The translations under genes were made by a program, and so were the position numbers. Positions 36,716 through 48,157 of a stretch of 48,157 nt of DNA are shown piece after piece. The stretch is from Nitrospirota bacterium (GTDB taxonomy: Bacteria; Nitrospirota; UBA9217), in the NCBI GenBank assembly GCA_021814615.1, contig JAKAHZ010000010.1:1-48157 (forward strand). Reading direction: 5' to 3'. The notes under the pieces were generated by a model. The model saw only the letters and a list, made by a program, of their open reading frames with translations. It ran no database searches and had not been told where the DNA came from. Position 1 is the first letter of the stretch. Each line of letters starts with the position of its first letter.

Positions 36716-37138
36716 CTACCGCTTCTCCCCAATAAGCGCCAGGAATTCCTCGGGCGTCATGACAGGAAGCTGATCTGTGCGGTAATCGCCCTTGTTCCTG
36801 GTTATCAGGCAGTCCGCCTCGACATGGAGCGCGGAATAGTATTGCACGGCATCTTCAAAGTCTTTGAAGGACGACACAAGCGAAAGGTCGATCACTTTCT
36901 CGTCCACTGCAGCGACCCGGAAAATGATCCTCAGCTTTTCGAGCACCCGCATTGCCTTGTCCCGCCGCAGCTCCCTCGACAGGATATAGAACAGCGTCGG
37001 AAAACTTTGCGCCGACAGATACCCGTGCAGCTTCTTTTCCTCGATCAGGGAGAATAATCTGGCAGCAGAAGTGTAATGGGATTCACGCTTCAGGAAGATA
37101 TCGAGAATGACGTTGATATCGCAGAGAACGCTTTTCAC
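36716..37138 (-). CDS. PIN-domain toxin (VapC-like)
   Basis: The 140-residue protein has the PIN fold: CDINVILDIFLKRE with the first catalytic Asp, the helix LSAQSFPTLFYILSREL, FEDAVQYYSALHVEADCLITRNKGDY with the acidic pair and a last strand. PIN toxins are Mg2+-dependent ribonucleases acting on tRNA or rRNA. The gene starts with GTG in a four-base GTGA overlap with the antitoxin stop, so the two are translationally coupled. The family is that of ribonuclease VapC; the target is unknown. Confidence 0.88.
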   Translation of the reverse strand: MKSVLCDINVILDIFLKRESHYTSAARLFSLIEEKKLHGYLSAQSFPTLFYILSRELRRDKAMRVLEKLRIIFRVAAVDEKVIDLSLVSSFKDFEDAVQYYSALHVEADCLITRNKGDYRTDQLPVMTPEEFLALIGEKR

Positions 37139-37383
37139 CGGTACTTCTCCGCGAGATGTTTCCGGTAGCCTGCGCGCAGCTCCGCGATATCCTTTTTCCC
37201 GGTCAGGACACCGGACACCTCGTACAGGACCGGCGATTCGCGGACGGCCTGCGTATCCTGCTCCGCAACGGCCTTGAAATAGTCCTCAACCATGCGAGAC
37301 AGGCTGATTCCCTTCGCGCTTGCCTTCTTCTTCGCCTTTTTGATGACCCCATCGTCCAATCGAAGCGTCAATTTCGTGCTCAT
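37135..37383 (-). CDS. Ribbon-helix-helix antitoxin (VapB-like)
   Basis: The 82-residue protein starts STKLTLRLDDGVIKKAKKKASAKGISLSRMVEDYF, a ribbon-helix-helix DNA-binding domain, followed by a toxin-binding tail (AELRAGYRKHLAEKYR). GGAGGGGG lies just upstream of the ATG at 37383. The inverted repeat in its promoter (37402-37426) is the likely operator for self-repression. It resembles DUF6364-type antitoxins paired with PIN toxins. Confidence 0.88.
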   Translation of the reverse strand: MSTKLTLRLDDGVIKKAKKKASAKGISLSRMVEDYFKAVAEQDTQAVRESPVLYEVSGVLTGKKDIAELRAGYRKHLAEKYR

Positions 37384-40780: not shown

Positions 40781-43096
40781 TTACTTGAACTCGATATCAT
40801 CCACCCAGACTGCATCCGCGCCGGTCACCGTGCCGTTATCCTTCTTATAGCACCACTTGTAGACCGTGGAGGAAACTCCCGCGAGCGACGGCGTGCTGAA
40901 CCAGGCCCTGCGCCAGGCGACCGGATCGTACCAATAGTGATAGGCGCTGCCGTTGATGTAGAACTCCAGCGCGTTCATCGAGGCCGCGTCCTGCTTGAGA
41001 CTGAAGAGAACCTCGGCCGTCCCGGTCCTTGTGTACTCAAAGCAGGTTGACTGCCCGACGGAGATCGATCCGGATTTCATGCTGGAACCCGTCCCCGGCG
41101 ATGCCCCGCCGTTGTTGGCCGCGTCGATGCCCCACTTGGTGAATTGGTTCCCCGGATAGGTCAGAACGAAAGAGGCCGGAAGGAGCCCGTCCTGGAACGA
41201 GAAACATTCGGCAGCGCCGCCGCCGCAACCGGAAGCAGGATCAAGGGGCGCCACCGTGACGGCATAAGAACTGGAGATATTGCCTGACGTATTGCTTTCG
41301 ACGGCGAGGTAGTAGGCGGTGTTCGCGTTCAGCACGCCGTAGGAGGACTGCGTCGTCGAGCAGATCTTATCTGCCGTGCCGGTTCCCATCAGGCACACGG
41401 GGCTGATATCCGTTGTGAAGACCGCGTCGGAATACAGCCGCCACCCGAGACTCGTCTGCATGTTCGTGAGGCTGATCCGGTACGTCATGGCCGAGGATCC
41501 GGTGGTGAACTTGTAATAGCTCGTTGCGTATTTGACGACGTAGCCGTTGTGCGCTGCACCCGGGGTCAGGGGATAGGGATAGTTCTTCGATCCCTCGTTC
41601 CCTCCGCCGGCAGCCGCCTGGAGCGTAAAGGAACTTGCCGCTGCCTCGGCATTCGAGACCTTGAGGTAATAGGTCGTGTTCGGATCGAGGTTGGCGGTGG
41701 CGCAGGTCTCGTCGCCCGCACCTGCGGTCGTCACCGTGTCGCAGGAGCCGAGGCTGGTAGTGAATCCTGCGTCGGAATACACCGTCCAGCTTAGGTTCGT
41801 CTGCGTATTCGTGAGGCTTACGGTATAGGAGCCGCCGACCCCGGTGTCCGCCGTGGTGAAGGCATAATAGCTGGAGCTCTTCCCGTCGACAGAGGCGGCC
41901 GTGGCCTGGCCAACGGTCAGCGCGACCGGCCCGGCAGGAGATCCCTCGCTGCCGCCCGGGATCACGACGATACTGTAGGTGCTGGACTGGCCGCCGCTGA
42001 TTGCTGTCGCGTTCATCACCTTCACATAATAGGCGGTCGCCGGTCCCAGGCCGGAGGCAAGGCACTGCGCTGACGAGTAGCAGGTTGCCACCTCGGACCC
42101 ATAGGAAAAGGCAGGATCGGAATAGACAAGGATGGTCAGCGTTGCCGTGGGCGTCACATTGCTCACCGCAATAGTATAAGACGACGTGGCGTTCGCATTC
42201 GTGGTGAACCTGTAGTAGCTCGTTCCTCCGTTTTCGATGCCGCCCACGTGACTCGTTCCGACGGTGAGATGCACGGGGCCGCTCACCGAGCCTTCGCTCG
42301 CTCCGGGCGACACGGTTATGGTGAAGAATCCGTCCTTATACCCCTGTTCCTCGACAAGCAGATAGTAGGACTGGCCGTTAACCAGGTTCGGGGTCGCGCA
42401 GATCTCGTCCCCTGCGTAGGAGGTGGTGTCGCAGGAGAAAACCACATAGGCAGTATAGCTTGCGTTGGAATAGAGCGACCATCTCAGGTCCTGGTGCGTA
42501 TCGGTCAGGCCGATGATGAACGAACCGTCCCGGTCGGCAACAAAGGAATAATAGCCTTTGCCGTCGCTCGATATGGTCGCATTGTGGGGCGTGCCGACGG
42601 TGAGCAGCACAGGGCTCCCGATGTTTCCCTCGTTCCCGCCTCCCGCAGTGACCGTTACCGTGTAGAAGCTCCCCGAGCCGGTGCTGTAATTGTTCACCAT
42701 GAGATAGTAGGCGGTCCCGCCGGTCAGGTCCGCGAAAGCAGCCAAGGTTGGGGAAGAATAACTGCTGCAGGATTTAACGGCGTTCTTGAAACCGGCATCT
42801 GAAAACAGGACCCAGCTGAGCGAGGTCGTGGCGCCGGTGACGGTGATCGTATAGAATCCGCTGGATGACGGAGTGAAGGAATAGTAGCTCACGCCTCCCA
42901 CGCCGATGCTCCCTGATGAGGGGGTCCCTACGGTGAGAGCAGCCGGGTTTGAACTAGAGCCGTCGCCGCTTCCCACGGGTATGGTCGAGGTATCGCCGCC
43001 TGATGATGCGCCTCCGCCTCCACCGCCGCACGACGTGAGCAGGAACGATAATGCCAAGATCAGTAAAACAGGCCAGAGTACGCGCAAATCCTTCAT
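40781..43096 (-). CDS. Lipoprotein with five PPC-like repeats and a C-terminal jelly-roll-like domain
   Basis: The 771-residue protein has a lipoprotein signal (MKDLRVLWPVLLILALSFLLTSC, C23 lipidated) and a glycine-rich stretch. Five ~125-residue repeats follow, each with a G-x-P-V-x-LTVGT start, SYYxFTT, a W-x-LYSDAxF strand and an AxxYYLxVxN strand. These resemble pre-peptidase C-terminal (PPC) domains. The end (CFSFQDGLLPASFVLTYPGN to VWVDDIEFK) looks like a carbohydrate-binding or MAM-type beta sandwich. No protease or other catalytic domain is attached, so a surface adhesion or binding role is inferred. AGGAGG precedes the ATG. Confidence 0.85.
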   Translation of the reverse strand: MKDLRVLWPVLLILALSFLLTSCGGGGGGASSGGDTSTIPVGSGDGSSSNPAALTVGTPSSGSIGVGGVSYYSFTPSSSGFYTITVTGATTSLSWVLFSDAGFKNAVKSCSSYSSPTLAAFADLTGGTAYYLMVNNYSTGSGSFYTVTVTAGGGNEGNIGSPVLLTVGTPHNATISSDGKGYYSFVADRDGSFIIGLTDTHQDLRWSLYSNASYTAYVVFSCDTTSYAGDEICATPNLVNGQSYYLLVEEQGYKDGFFTITVSPGASEGSVSGPVHLTVGTSHVGGIENGGTSYYRFTTNANATSSYTIAVSNVTPTATLTILVYSDPAFSYGSEVATCYSSAQCLASGLGPATAYYVKVMNATAISGGQSSTYSIVVIPGGSEGSPAGPVALTVGQATAASVDGKSSSYYAFTTADTGVGGSYTVSLTNTQTNLSWTVYSDAGFTTSLGSCDTVTTAGAGDETCATANLDPNTTYYLKVSNAEAAASSFTLQAAAGGGNEGSKNYPYPLTPGAAHNGYVVKYATSYYKFTTGSSAMTYRISLTNMQTSLGWRLYSDAVFTTDISPVCLMGTGTADKICSTTQSSYGVLNANTAYYLAVESNTSGNISSSYAVTVAPLDPASGCGGGAAECFSFQDGLLPASFVLTYPGNQFTKWGIDAANNGGASPGTGSSMKSGSISVGQSTCFEYTRTGTAEVLFSLKQDAASMNALEFYINGSAYHYWYDPVAWRRAWFSTPSLAGVSSTVYKWCYKKDNGTVTGADAVWVDDIEFK

Positions 43097-43190
43097 GAGC
43101 TAGCCTCCTGTTTTGTAAATCTAAAGTATTGCCCCGCGAGTCTACTCTCTCTGTTCAAGGAAGTCAACATGGCGGATAGAACATGAAAAA

Positions 43191-44466: not shown

Positions 44467-47400
44467 CTACGATGTCTTGTGACGGTGCTTCCTTTTTTTC
44501 TTACTCTTCTTTAAGCTATTAGGACTGACAATGCTAGACGAGCAATCAAGAATTATAACTTCAATGAGAACCCGATCATCTTCTGGAATAACCGTCAGAA
44601 GCGCATTCTGCAATTCAGAAGGTGTAACTGGTTGACTTATGCCCATTGGCGGTTTCCGAATATTCTTTTCTTTCGTTCCGAACCAAAATACAAGATAGAT
44701 CCCACGGCCCTGAGTACCTGGATCTCGGACATATAATTTCTGAAGTTGTTCAACTGGAGCAGTCCACAGGTCGGGGTGATAGTGCCGTTTGATTTCAATT
44801 GGAACATTCATTGAACCAAACAGCGCTTTAATATCGGCCCTTTTATCCTGGGCGTAATGACCTTCTGGCTCGGCATTGACTCCTACGCGAGATAATCTAG
44901 GTCGAATTATCTCCAAGAGTCGATCACGACAATCATTTTCCGGCCGGGGTTTTGTTGGTTTATCGTGCGGATCAACGTTCCAAAAAGCCTTATAGCCATC
45001 AGTAGGTCCGTGACGCAGTTCTTCACTTATTGCATTCAAATGATCAACTAATAATGCTTGAAGATCTGCTGAGTTAGAAGGTTGACCGCCCTGTAATGTC
45101 GAAATAACTTTCGCAACCGTGGGGAACTGAAATTCTGTTTCACGTCGTTGCTGCATTTGAGATGCGCGTGCCCGCGCTATAGACTCTTTCCATGACGATA
45201 ATGCTGGATTGTTATAAAGTTCGTTCAAGGTATTGACAGCCGCTTGGCTTATATCATTGCCTAACACAGTCAATAGGCCATCTATAGACCGCGATCGCTC
45301 TTCCTCAGCATTGATATCACGCACCCATTCACTTTCATTGCCCCGATAATGTGGGAAAACACTACCTGCAATGGATATCGGCAATGTAAGATCCAATGGC
45401 CTTTTCTTTAGCCTTTCTAAACCAATTTGCGAAATATAATTGAGAAAATGTGCTGCCTTATCTTTATTTCTATTCACATATTTCGCAAGCTTCTTCTTAA
45501 ATTTATCAGCGTTTAATAAATAACCTGTGGCAAGCCAGTAAATTCGCTGCACGCCGCTAACGAGGCCAGCCCTTGAAAGGACATCATCAACAAGCTTGAG
45601 CAGTAAGCTCTGATCAACGTGGTTGAGCGCCACTCTCATCAGATGTCTAAGATTTTGTTCAGTGCAACATGGATATTCACTCAGCAATAAGGGCGAGAGA
45701 AGTCTTCCAACATCTTTCATTTTATCGTCGTGTGCAAGACTGTAGAGCCCAGGGATATCCGCTGCGTCTTTTGCAAAATGCGGTTTCCAGAAAGCCCCCA
45801 AAGCTTCTACAGCGAGAGCGGGCCGTTCGACCATAATGCGAGTAACCCATTCTCTTTCTCCGCCAGTTGAGCTTGCATAATGATACGCAATTGCGGACCG
45901 CAATATTTCATCTGCCAAAGTCAATAGATCGTCTATCGAATTACTGGCAAATAAATCCATTGCTGCAAGAATTACGATGCCATAGGTGTAATGACGCGAT
46001 GAATCCGCGTGAAGCTCTCCAATTTGACTCGGTGTATATACGGGCTTCTTCCTGACAATGTAGCCAAAGCCCTCCTTAGCAGCACTAGCAAGCTCATCAC
46101 CCACAAAAGCTATTAGCCGGGCCTCAGGCGGCAGATCACGGTCAATCTCTACATATCTACCGAAATATATATTGGCCAGAAAAACTAAGGAACTTATATC
46201 CTCTCCTGATCGAATATCGTCCATTTTCGTCTTTATGTTTTCAATAAGTGTGGCTCGTTTTTCAAGCCGTTGACGCTCATCCTCTATGTGTTGTATCTGG
46301 TGTTCTATATGGTCAGTACTTAATCGTGCGATAAGTAGCGATTCTGATAAATTGCGAAATTGAGGATGTCTGTCCACGAAAGCATGTATCTCTTCAACCG
46401 CTTGGGTAACGTCTTGATCACTCCGATAATTTATTCGGATAGCCTTCTTTAACAGGAATTCCGCTTTTAGAGAATTTGATTCAATTGCCGCTTGTTCCAG
46501 CATCCGTCGCGTAATATCTTCCGGATACTTCACACCTGTTAAAGCGTACGAGAACCTATATTCCTCATGTTCCACTCTTTCTGGAGGGGAGACCATAATG
46601 AGATTAAAAAACAGTTGAGCAACTATCGTCGGCCTCGTCTTTAGCCAATCGATTACTTCTTGTGATTTCTCACGTTCGATCAGTATTTCCCCATATTCAC
46701 CAGCTATTAACATTATCCAGGTATAGAGACGATTGACCGATACTGCTTCTCCATGATCGGCCAAGCCGGCTACTAGAAGATCGCCAACAAATCTTTTGCA
46801 CGAATAACATTCCTCAGATGATCGCAGAAAGTTTGCCCCTACTACCGCGTCAAGAAGCACTGGTATCTGTTGTAAATCAGTTTTCTTAACCAAATAGGTA
46901 TCAAGAAATCTGTTGTAGTCGCTATATATGTTTGAATGCTCAGGAATCAGATAATCAACTATCTGTGGCACGCCAATTACCAAAGGATAAAGGGTGTGCA
47001 GTAAGTTCCCCAGCAAACCATTATCATCATCCTTGACGCGACCATTATTAATATCGTTAAGAAGTTGTTCAAGGTCCTTCATGCGGTCTGGGCATGCATG
47101 TATAAATGCCCGAAGTCCATTAACTCGAAGATAGTCGCGCCGTGTCTTATCACGAACAACATTAAGCAATAAATCTCCAAGTCGCGGTAGCGGCGTTCCA
47201 TAGCGGATTGCATCTAAAACACAACTCACAGCAACCGGATGTTGAGATGAATCTTCGATTATTTTTCTAAAGGCAAGTTCCATATCCTCTGAAGCAAGCC
47301 CTCCGAGTGGGCGCGAAGCCCAATTTTCTGCCGACCGGAACCAAGGATTTCTCTGTGCAAGATCAACGAGGTTCTTTATGACCAACTTTTTAGCAGATAG

Positions 47401-48157
47401 TGATAGCTGCGCGGGATCGCCATATAGCACGACACCGAATGGGTCTCGCGGTATTAAGGATTCAACATGCTCCGGACACTGGCATGCAAGCCACGCAAAA
47501 AGCCCTCTGAGATCGGATAAAGTACCACCATCATTTCCAGTAACCAGTGCTATTACACGCCCAATTGGCAGCCCTTCGCGAATGCGGGTTACGAGATATC
47601 GAGCAGCCACGAACTCTGCTATAGTTCTATGCGTCGGCACAACCCTTTCAAAACCGTCAGCACGAAATATCCTACGACGCGCAGCCAAGCTCAATTCATC
47701 TTGTTTGCCTGGTAACTCACCTATAAATGGAAAACTCTGATCAGCACTCTTTTCTGTTAGTGCAAACCCCTCAGATCCACCACATAAGATAACAGCACTT
47801 AAATAGCCAGCTGCGCTTAGCATCATATCTATATTTACATCAGCCGGCAGAGCCCTATTATGCTCTTCTCTCTCTTTTACTAATATTCGACATGCGCTCT
47901 CGTAAAGCTCCAATCGAGTATGAGGCCAGTCCCCTGTATGAACAACCGTCATAATGAGATCCAGAGTCTGAGGATTCGTTAACAGCTCATAAATACCACG
48001 ACGTCTTGCCTCCTTGACAAATAATCGCGCATCTGAAACCTTATCATATGCAATTGTGAGTATGTCTTGCTCTGAAAGGGGTTCAAGGGACAAAGCGATT
48101 ACAGACTTGTCCTGCGAAACCAGTTTTAGCCTTTCTATATCCGATGATCCAGATCGG
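44467..48157 (-). CDS. Giant NACHT/STAND-like protein with C-terminal PD-(D/E)XK nuclease (5' end outside window)
   Basis: The frame is open to the right edge, giving at least 1230 residues; the true start is beyond the window. The first visible residues carry ELLTNPQTLDLIMTV, a TRLELYESAC segment and HRTIAEFVAARYL, typical of the helical part after a NACHT/AAA-like NTPase core. A ~750-residue alpha-helical region follows, then a nuclease-like end with RADIKALFGSMN, VPIEIKR and QLQKLYV (D codon 44833-44835, E 44794-44796, K 44788-44790, QxxxY 44731-44748). This fits an effector of PD-(D/E)XK type. A lysine/arginine-rich tail ends it. GC content is visibly lower than in all neighbours, suggesting horizontal acquisition. 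The likely role is anti-phage defence. Confidence 0.75.
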   Translation of the reverse strand, partial: RSGSSDIERLKLVSQDKSVIALSLEPLSEQDILTIAYDKVSDARLFVKEARRRGIYELLTNPQTLDLIMTVVHTGDWPHTRLELYESACRILVKEREEHNRALPADVNIDMMLSAAGYLSAVILCGGSEGFALTEKSADQSFPFIGELPGKQDELSLAARRRIFRADGFERVVPTHRTIAEFVAARYLVTRIREGLPIGRVIALVTGNDGGTLSDLRGLFAWLACQCPEHVESLIPRDPFGVVLYGDPAQLSLSAKKLVIKNLVDLAQRNPWFRSAENWASRPLGGLASEDMELAFRKIIEDSSQHPVAVSCVLDAIRYGTPLPRLGDLLLNVVRDKTRRDYLRVNGLRAFIHACPDRMKDLEQLLNDINNGRVKDDDNGLLGNLLHTLYPLVIGVPQIVDYLIPEHSNIYSDYNRFLDTYLVKKTDLQQIPVLLDAVVGANFLRSSEECYSCKRFVGDLLVAGLADHGEAVSVNRLYTWIMLIAGEYGEILIEREKSQEVIDWLKTRPTIVAQLFFNLIMVSPPERVEHEEYRFSYALTGVKYPEDITRRMLEQAAIESNSLKAEFLLKKAIRINYRSDQDVTQAVEEIHAFVDRHPQFRNLSESLLIARLSTDHIEHQIQHIEDERQRLEKRATLIENIKTKMDDIRSGEDISSLVFLANIYFGRYVEIDRDLPPEARLIAFVGDELASAAKEGFGYIVRKKPVYTPSQIGELHADSSRHYTYGIVILAAMDLFASNSIDDLLTLADEILRSAIAYHYASSTGGEREWVTRIMVERPALAVEALGAFWKPHFAKDAADIPGLYSLAHDDKMKDVGRLLSPLLLSEYPCCTEQNLRHLMRVALNHVDQSLLLKLVDDVLSRAGLVSGVQRIYWLATGYLLNADKFKKKLAKYVNRNKDKAAHFLNYISQIGLERLKKRPLDLTLPISIAGSVFPHYRGNESEWVRDINAEEERSRSIDGLLTVLGNDISQAAVNTLNELYNNPALSSWKESIARARASQMQQRRETEFQFPTVAKVISTLQGGQPSNSADLQALLVDHLNAISEELRHGPTDGYKAFWNVDPHDKPTKPRPENDCRDRLLEIIRPRLSRVGVNAEPEGHYAQDKRADIKALFGSMNVPIEIKRHYHPDLWTAPVEQLQKLYVRDPGTQGRGIYLVFWFGTKEKNIRKPPMGISQPVTPSELQNALLTVIPEDDRVLIEVIILDCSSSIVSPNSLKKSKKKRKHRHKTS

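Follow-up and report, generated by a model that had tools for sequence, protein, structure and literature searches.

A divergent EruA-like NACHT protein with a predicted C-terminal nuclease at the end of a Nitrospirota contig

The gene at the right end of the window (the whole stretch of 48,157 nucleotides analyzed here) very probably encodes an EruA-type single-protein phage sensor, in which a NACHT ATPase and a solenoid would switch on a C-terminal DNase. What we observe directly is homology to EruA, the order of the domains, conservation of the nuclease residues and, in relatives, of the ATPase residues, and carriage of the relatives on mobile elements. The reading frame, on the minus strand, stays open up to the contig's final base. 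The contig measures exactly 48157 bases, and the gene runs off its right end; because the contig stops where the window stops, the cut is one of assembly, with no visible mutation. The gene and its parts are as follows.

44467-48157, minus strand: eruA-like gene, 5' end missing; 1,229 residues of an expected ~1,340 (open frame, contig end, and NF058535 match)
44467-44469, minus strand: stop codon of the eruA-like gene
44470-44541, minus strand: lysine-rich C-terminal tail (KKSKKKRKHRHK), read from the sequence and modeled with low confidence
44542-44943, minus strand: predicted PD-(D/E)XK nuclease domain, with the E of PENDCRD (alpha1), the D of KRAD, the E-x-K of IEIKR, and the Q-x4-Y of QLQKLY (invariant residues and predicted fold)
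45010-47517, minus strand: all-helical HEAT/importin-like solenoid, the presumed sensor (AlphaFold, Foldseek, and conservation)
47593-48157, minus strand: end of the NACHT/STAND ATPase module and winged-helix-like region, with LEPLSEQDI, LLTNPQTLDLI, and HRTIAEFVAARYL (alignment with full-length relatives)

The window protein matches the NCBIfam model NF058535, “NACHT domain-containing antiphage protein EruA,” with 874 bits (E 2.7e-262). The alignment is colinear, runs over profile positions 115-1318 of 1318 (1,204 positions), and covers the entire window protein, which supports the proposal of the first-pass annotation that this is a NACHT/STAND-type NTPase of defense. The curated cut-off for EruA is 1,000 bits, a whole-protein score, and the N-terminally incomplete window protein falls under it. 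When the N terminus of the plasmid-borne relative L015 was trimmed similarly, its score against the model dropped from 1,131 to 1,022 bits, a loss of 109, which places the full window protein near the cut-off; judging from trimmed relatives, it would probably score about 960-985 bits if complete. Above the cut-off lie L015 itself, an Escherichia coli protein (L062, 1,130 bits) whose annotation reads just “NACHT domain-containing protein,” a protein from a viral contig (L055), and one from the same phylum (L019). The E. coli protein shows the ATPase-solenoid-nuclease layout as well, and the above-cut-off members likewise end in a PD-(D/E)XK domain. The window protein is 26% identical to the E. 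coli EruA and at most 41% identical to any relative found, the nearest complete one being L019 (41%). HyoA (NCBIfam NF058534), another NACHT antiphage protein, is related to it over residues 15-902, but the match of 164 bits is far under the HyoA cut-off of 1,200 bits, and the window protein is clearly nearer EruA. In PADLOC, the window protein matched no family at E values up to 10; a Pfam search gave no match.

With EruA the window protein shares the ATPase-solenoid-nuclease order, the catalytic residues, and colinearity over all of its available length; it differs in being without the N-terminal 112 residues, in its divergence, and in a score under the curated cut-off. We regard it as EruA-like but divergent, lying close to the boundary of the curated family; it adds breadth and is not a new system. 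The family already has a name and an entry in NCBIfam, and its members as a rule carry the nuclease at the C terminus; the window protein does not stand out in this. The layout had been called unusual; it is uncommon among such sensors at large, yet standard for EruA. A literature search for EruA and HyoA returned only unrelated uses of the names, one of them EruA as the name of an E. coli regulator, and the DefensePredictor paper names neither. Antiphage activity is predicted for EruA, and hence for the window protein, from the NCBIfam family label.

A second group of proteins (L025, L026, L027, L017, L028, and L029), ~1,400 residues long, has the same ATPase-solenoid-nuclease order and just ~16% identity to the window protein. 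The two members that were scored are both far under the EruA and HyoA cut-offs, and the group is possibly an unnamed sister family.

All motifs quoted in the first-pass annotation were located in the window protein: LLTNPQTLDLI at residues 58-68 (47953-47985), HRTIAEFVAARYL at 176-188 (47593-47631), KRADI at 1105-1109 (44830-44844), IEIKR at 1120-1124 (44785-44799), and QLQKLY at 1137-1142 (44731-44748). The last three belong to the putative C-terminal nuclease, for which we aligned 15 sequences, namely the window protein and 14 relatives that are 22-59% identical to it over the domain. Among the columns without any variation are E43, D78, E91, K93, and Q107, that is, the E, D, E-x-K, and Q. 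An AlphaFold model of the domain, made from an input of six sequences and with local pLDDT near 90, has the predicted core alpha-beta-beta-beta-alpha-beta and places the conserved residues in helix 114-130, at the start of the strand after the D, in strand 157-165, and in helix 174-185. The motif is beyond chance because its residues are invariant across divergent relatives and are located on the helix and strands where they are expected. A Foldseek comparison of the nuclease domain alone with the PDB reached a best E of 0.06, which is non-significant; its top matches, equally non-significant, included Hjc resolvases (probability 0.54-0.66), PspGI, and Mus81, and a profile search of PDB sequences with the domain gave nothing meaningful. 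The claim of a C-terminal PD-(D/E)XK domain is thus borne out by the invariant residues and by a predicted core of the restriction-endonuclease type; the assignment draws on motif and topology, with the fold search suggestive. The lysine-rich tail that follows the domain is presumably disordered, and L015 carries a longer basic C-terminal tail than the window protein.

Upstream of the nuclease, roughly residues 214-1049 are all helical solenoid in an AlphaFold model (1,176 residues, mean pLDDT 78.6, pTM 0.60), in agreement with the large helical region read from the sequence. Foldseek with this model returned CAND1, CRM1, importin-beta, and FANCI at E of about 1e-5 to 1e-3, and also condensin Ycg1. 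The likeness is one of class and not to any particular protein, because the TM-scores are low. Across eight representatives the ATPase and nuclease ends are highly conserved, and conservation reaches its minimum between them: residues 551-1100 of L019 contain not one invariant column. A diverging middle is as expected of a region that would recognize a target and evolve with it.

At the other end, about 112 N-terminal residues are missing from the window protein, and Walker A and B fall beyond the contig end, as had been stated for the NTPase core. Full-length relatives carry GxPGxGK, LDxLDE, and RxxCRxxxW immediately upstream of the window protein's first residue, and Walker A, Walker B, and RxxCRxxxW are invariant or nearly so in 14 of them; in these relatives, the P-loop sought in an extended N terminus is present, with Walker B, directly upstream of the part that corresponds to the window protein. 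A search of the organism's own genome with the whole model did not find the missing piece elsewhere in the assembly. Weak P-loop matches near other contig ends proved to be ClpC, adenylate kinase, and FtsH, none of which joins the window gene, and a profile search of PDB sequences with the ATPase half returned generic P-loop proteins only.

The missing N terminus leaves space for two other readings. First, an N-terminal effector could lie in the ~112 residues off the contig, which would make this a protein with two effectors or an Avs-like protein. We consider this extremely improbable because in the aligned relatives, in the EruA group and the second group alike, about 35-60 residues separate the gene start from the P-loop, and there is therefore no room for a folded N-terminal effector. 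Second, the gene could be a nonfunctional leftover in this genome, decaying or truncated, given that its N terminus is absent from the assembly and that one relative (L024), apparently a pseudogene, has three in-frame stops. This seems very unlikely, as 1,229 codons are open, no nuclease residue has been lost, and the frame is cut exactly where the contig ends. This copy, whose ATPase core is off the contig, could carry defects within its first 112 residues.

An EruA-type sensor is the reading that we prefer, with an N-terminal NACHT (STAND) ATPase and winged-helix region, then a HEAT-like solenoid of ~800 residues, and then the predicted C-terminal PD-(D/E)XK nuclease. By analogy with the STAND family, the solenoid would recognize something made by the phage or a host process that infection perturbs, upon which the NACHT ATPase would exchange nucleotide and oligomerize. 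Oligomerization could gather the C-terminal nuclease domains or free them to degrade DNA, and degradation would stop phage replication and probably the cell too, by death or arrest. Ligand, oligomer, DNA substrate, and cell fate are all taken over here from that family.

Two sets of known systems bear on this proposal. Avs1-Avs5 (AVAST) join a STAND ATPase to a large helical sensor, and several types use a nuclease as their effector; in these proteins, as in most described STAND immune sensors, the effector precedes the ATPase. The window protein resembles them in combining a STAND ATPase, a large helical region, and a nuclease, but its nuclease is at the C terminus and its relatives' P-loop is close to the start. 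Five relatives matched no Avs-type PADLOC family. With no PADLOC match for the window protein and an effector on the C-terminal side, we reject its identity as an Avs; the layout and the likely defense role given in the first-pass annotation are supported. The bNACHT25 and bNACHT32 proteins likewise join a NACHT module to a PD-(D/E)XK nuclease, as in the EruA-type layout, but there the nuclease is N-terminal and the C terminus is an NCH1 helical region (PMC12169576). In both, the nuclease active site is needed for defense, and DNA is degraded upon infection (PMC12169576). By analogy with these two proteins, NACHT assembly triggered by infection, followed by nuclease activation, is the most likely course for the window protein as well.

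A family in which the effector comes after the sensor poses a structural question, namely how oligomerization of an ATPase hub activates a nuclease at the far end. It is conceivable, though less likely than not, that the window protein represents a divergent EruA-like lineage whose fast-evolving solenoid sees a novel phage target and whose C-terminal nuclease needs an assembly geometry unlike that of Avs or bNACHT. In that case the effector would lie not at the hub but at the sensor arm's outer end.

GC content is 44.2% in the gene and 59.8% in the remainder of the window, as the first-pass annotation had described in calling it AT-rich. Relatives (E below 1e-20) are present in 20 of 396 genomes of the phylum and in 0 of 13 other genomes of the same family, and a scan of genome_contigs gave a single relative. 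The window supplies a divergent member of the EruA family, and the survey brought in further ones from Mu-like and P2-like prophages. A full-length EruA-like gene at L052:4500-8582 (IMGVR_UViG_3300035005_000003) lies in reverse orientation amid Mu-like phage head genes, as cargo in what looks like a Mu-like phage; in L054 the gene adjoins tail genes in a P2-like phage, and in L055 it is beside type I restriction genes, the phage and restriction identities at these last two loci being read from the sequences without a family search. The E. coli eruA is in an island with integrases and tRNA-Asn genes, and the relatives on conjugative plasmids are near integrases, restriction endonucleases, and a TrlF ATPase. 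Low GC and the carriage of relatives on plasmids, prophages, and islands fit a horizontally moved defense gene.

Such surroundings also bear on whether the protein acts as a restriction-like enzyme, in which the nuclease would attack incoming DNA seen by the solenoid or by the nuclease itself, with the NACHT module as regulator and with neither sensing of phage proteins nor cell killing. Many restriction enzymes contain a PD-(D/E)XK domain, HEAT-like solenoids are capable of binding DNA (the Foldseek matches included Ycg1 and FANCI), the C-terminal tail is basic, and some relatives adjoin type I restriction genes or restriction endonucleases. However, no methyltransferase partner is conserved beside the relatives examined, and a NACHT module with a fast-diverging middle suits sensors of the STAND class better. 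We therefore consider such an enzyme unlikely here.

Several relatives have recurrent neighbors. In four of them the eruA-like gene is immediately preceded, or overlapped, by a same-strand gene for an AAA_14/DUF4143 ATPase (L055:1985-3280, L064:4398-5669, L065:10951-12279, and L066:11862-13187), which is a possible partner of the EruA-like protein in part of the family; a search of the window's own genome for AAA_14/DUF4143 gave one weak match, on another contig and with no link to the window. A gene for an LA2681-type HEPN protein (L062:17148-18752) starts a few bases after the E. coli eruA, and a similar-looking gene (L051:4664-6277) comes after eruA in a P2-like prophage contig. There, eruA (L051:1353-4660) is split by a transposase gene; the same gene is uninterrupted in nine E. 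coli genomes.

In the window itself, the neighbors of the eruA-like gene are ordinary (DUF3108, a cytochrome, and DUF748), and no defense gene was recognized beside it. An empty site was not demonstrated: DUF3108 relatives occur in 14 of 14 family genomes, with no conserved neighbors in the three stretches examined. Farther along the minus strand, 40784-43099 encodes a 772-residue lipoprotein-like protein with several degenerate repeats (SYYxFT...YTVTV) and no Pfam match, and 36719-37285 encodes a protein with a PIN_3 domain that may be the toxin in a toxin-antitoxin pair.
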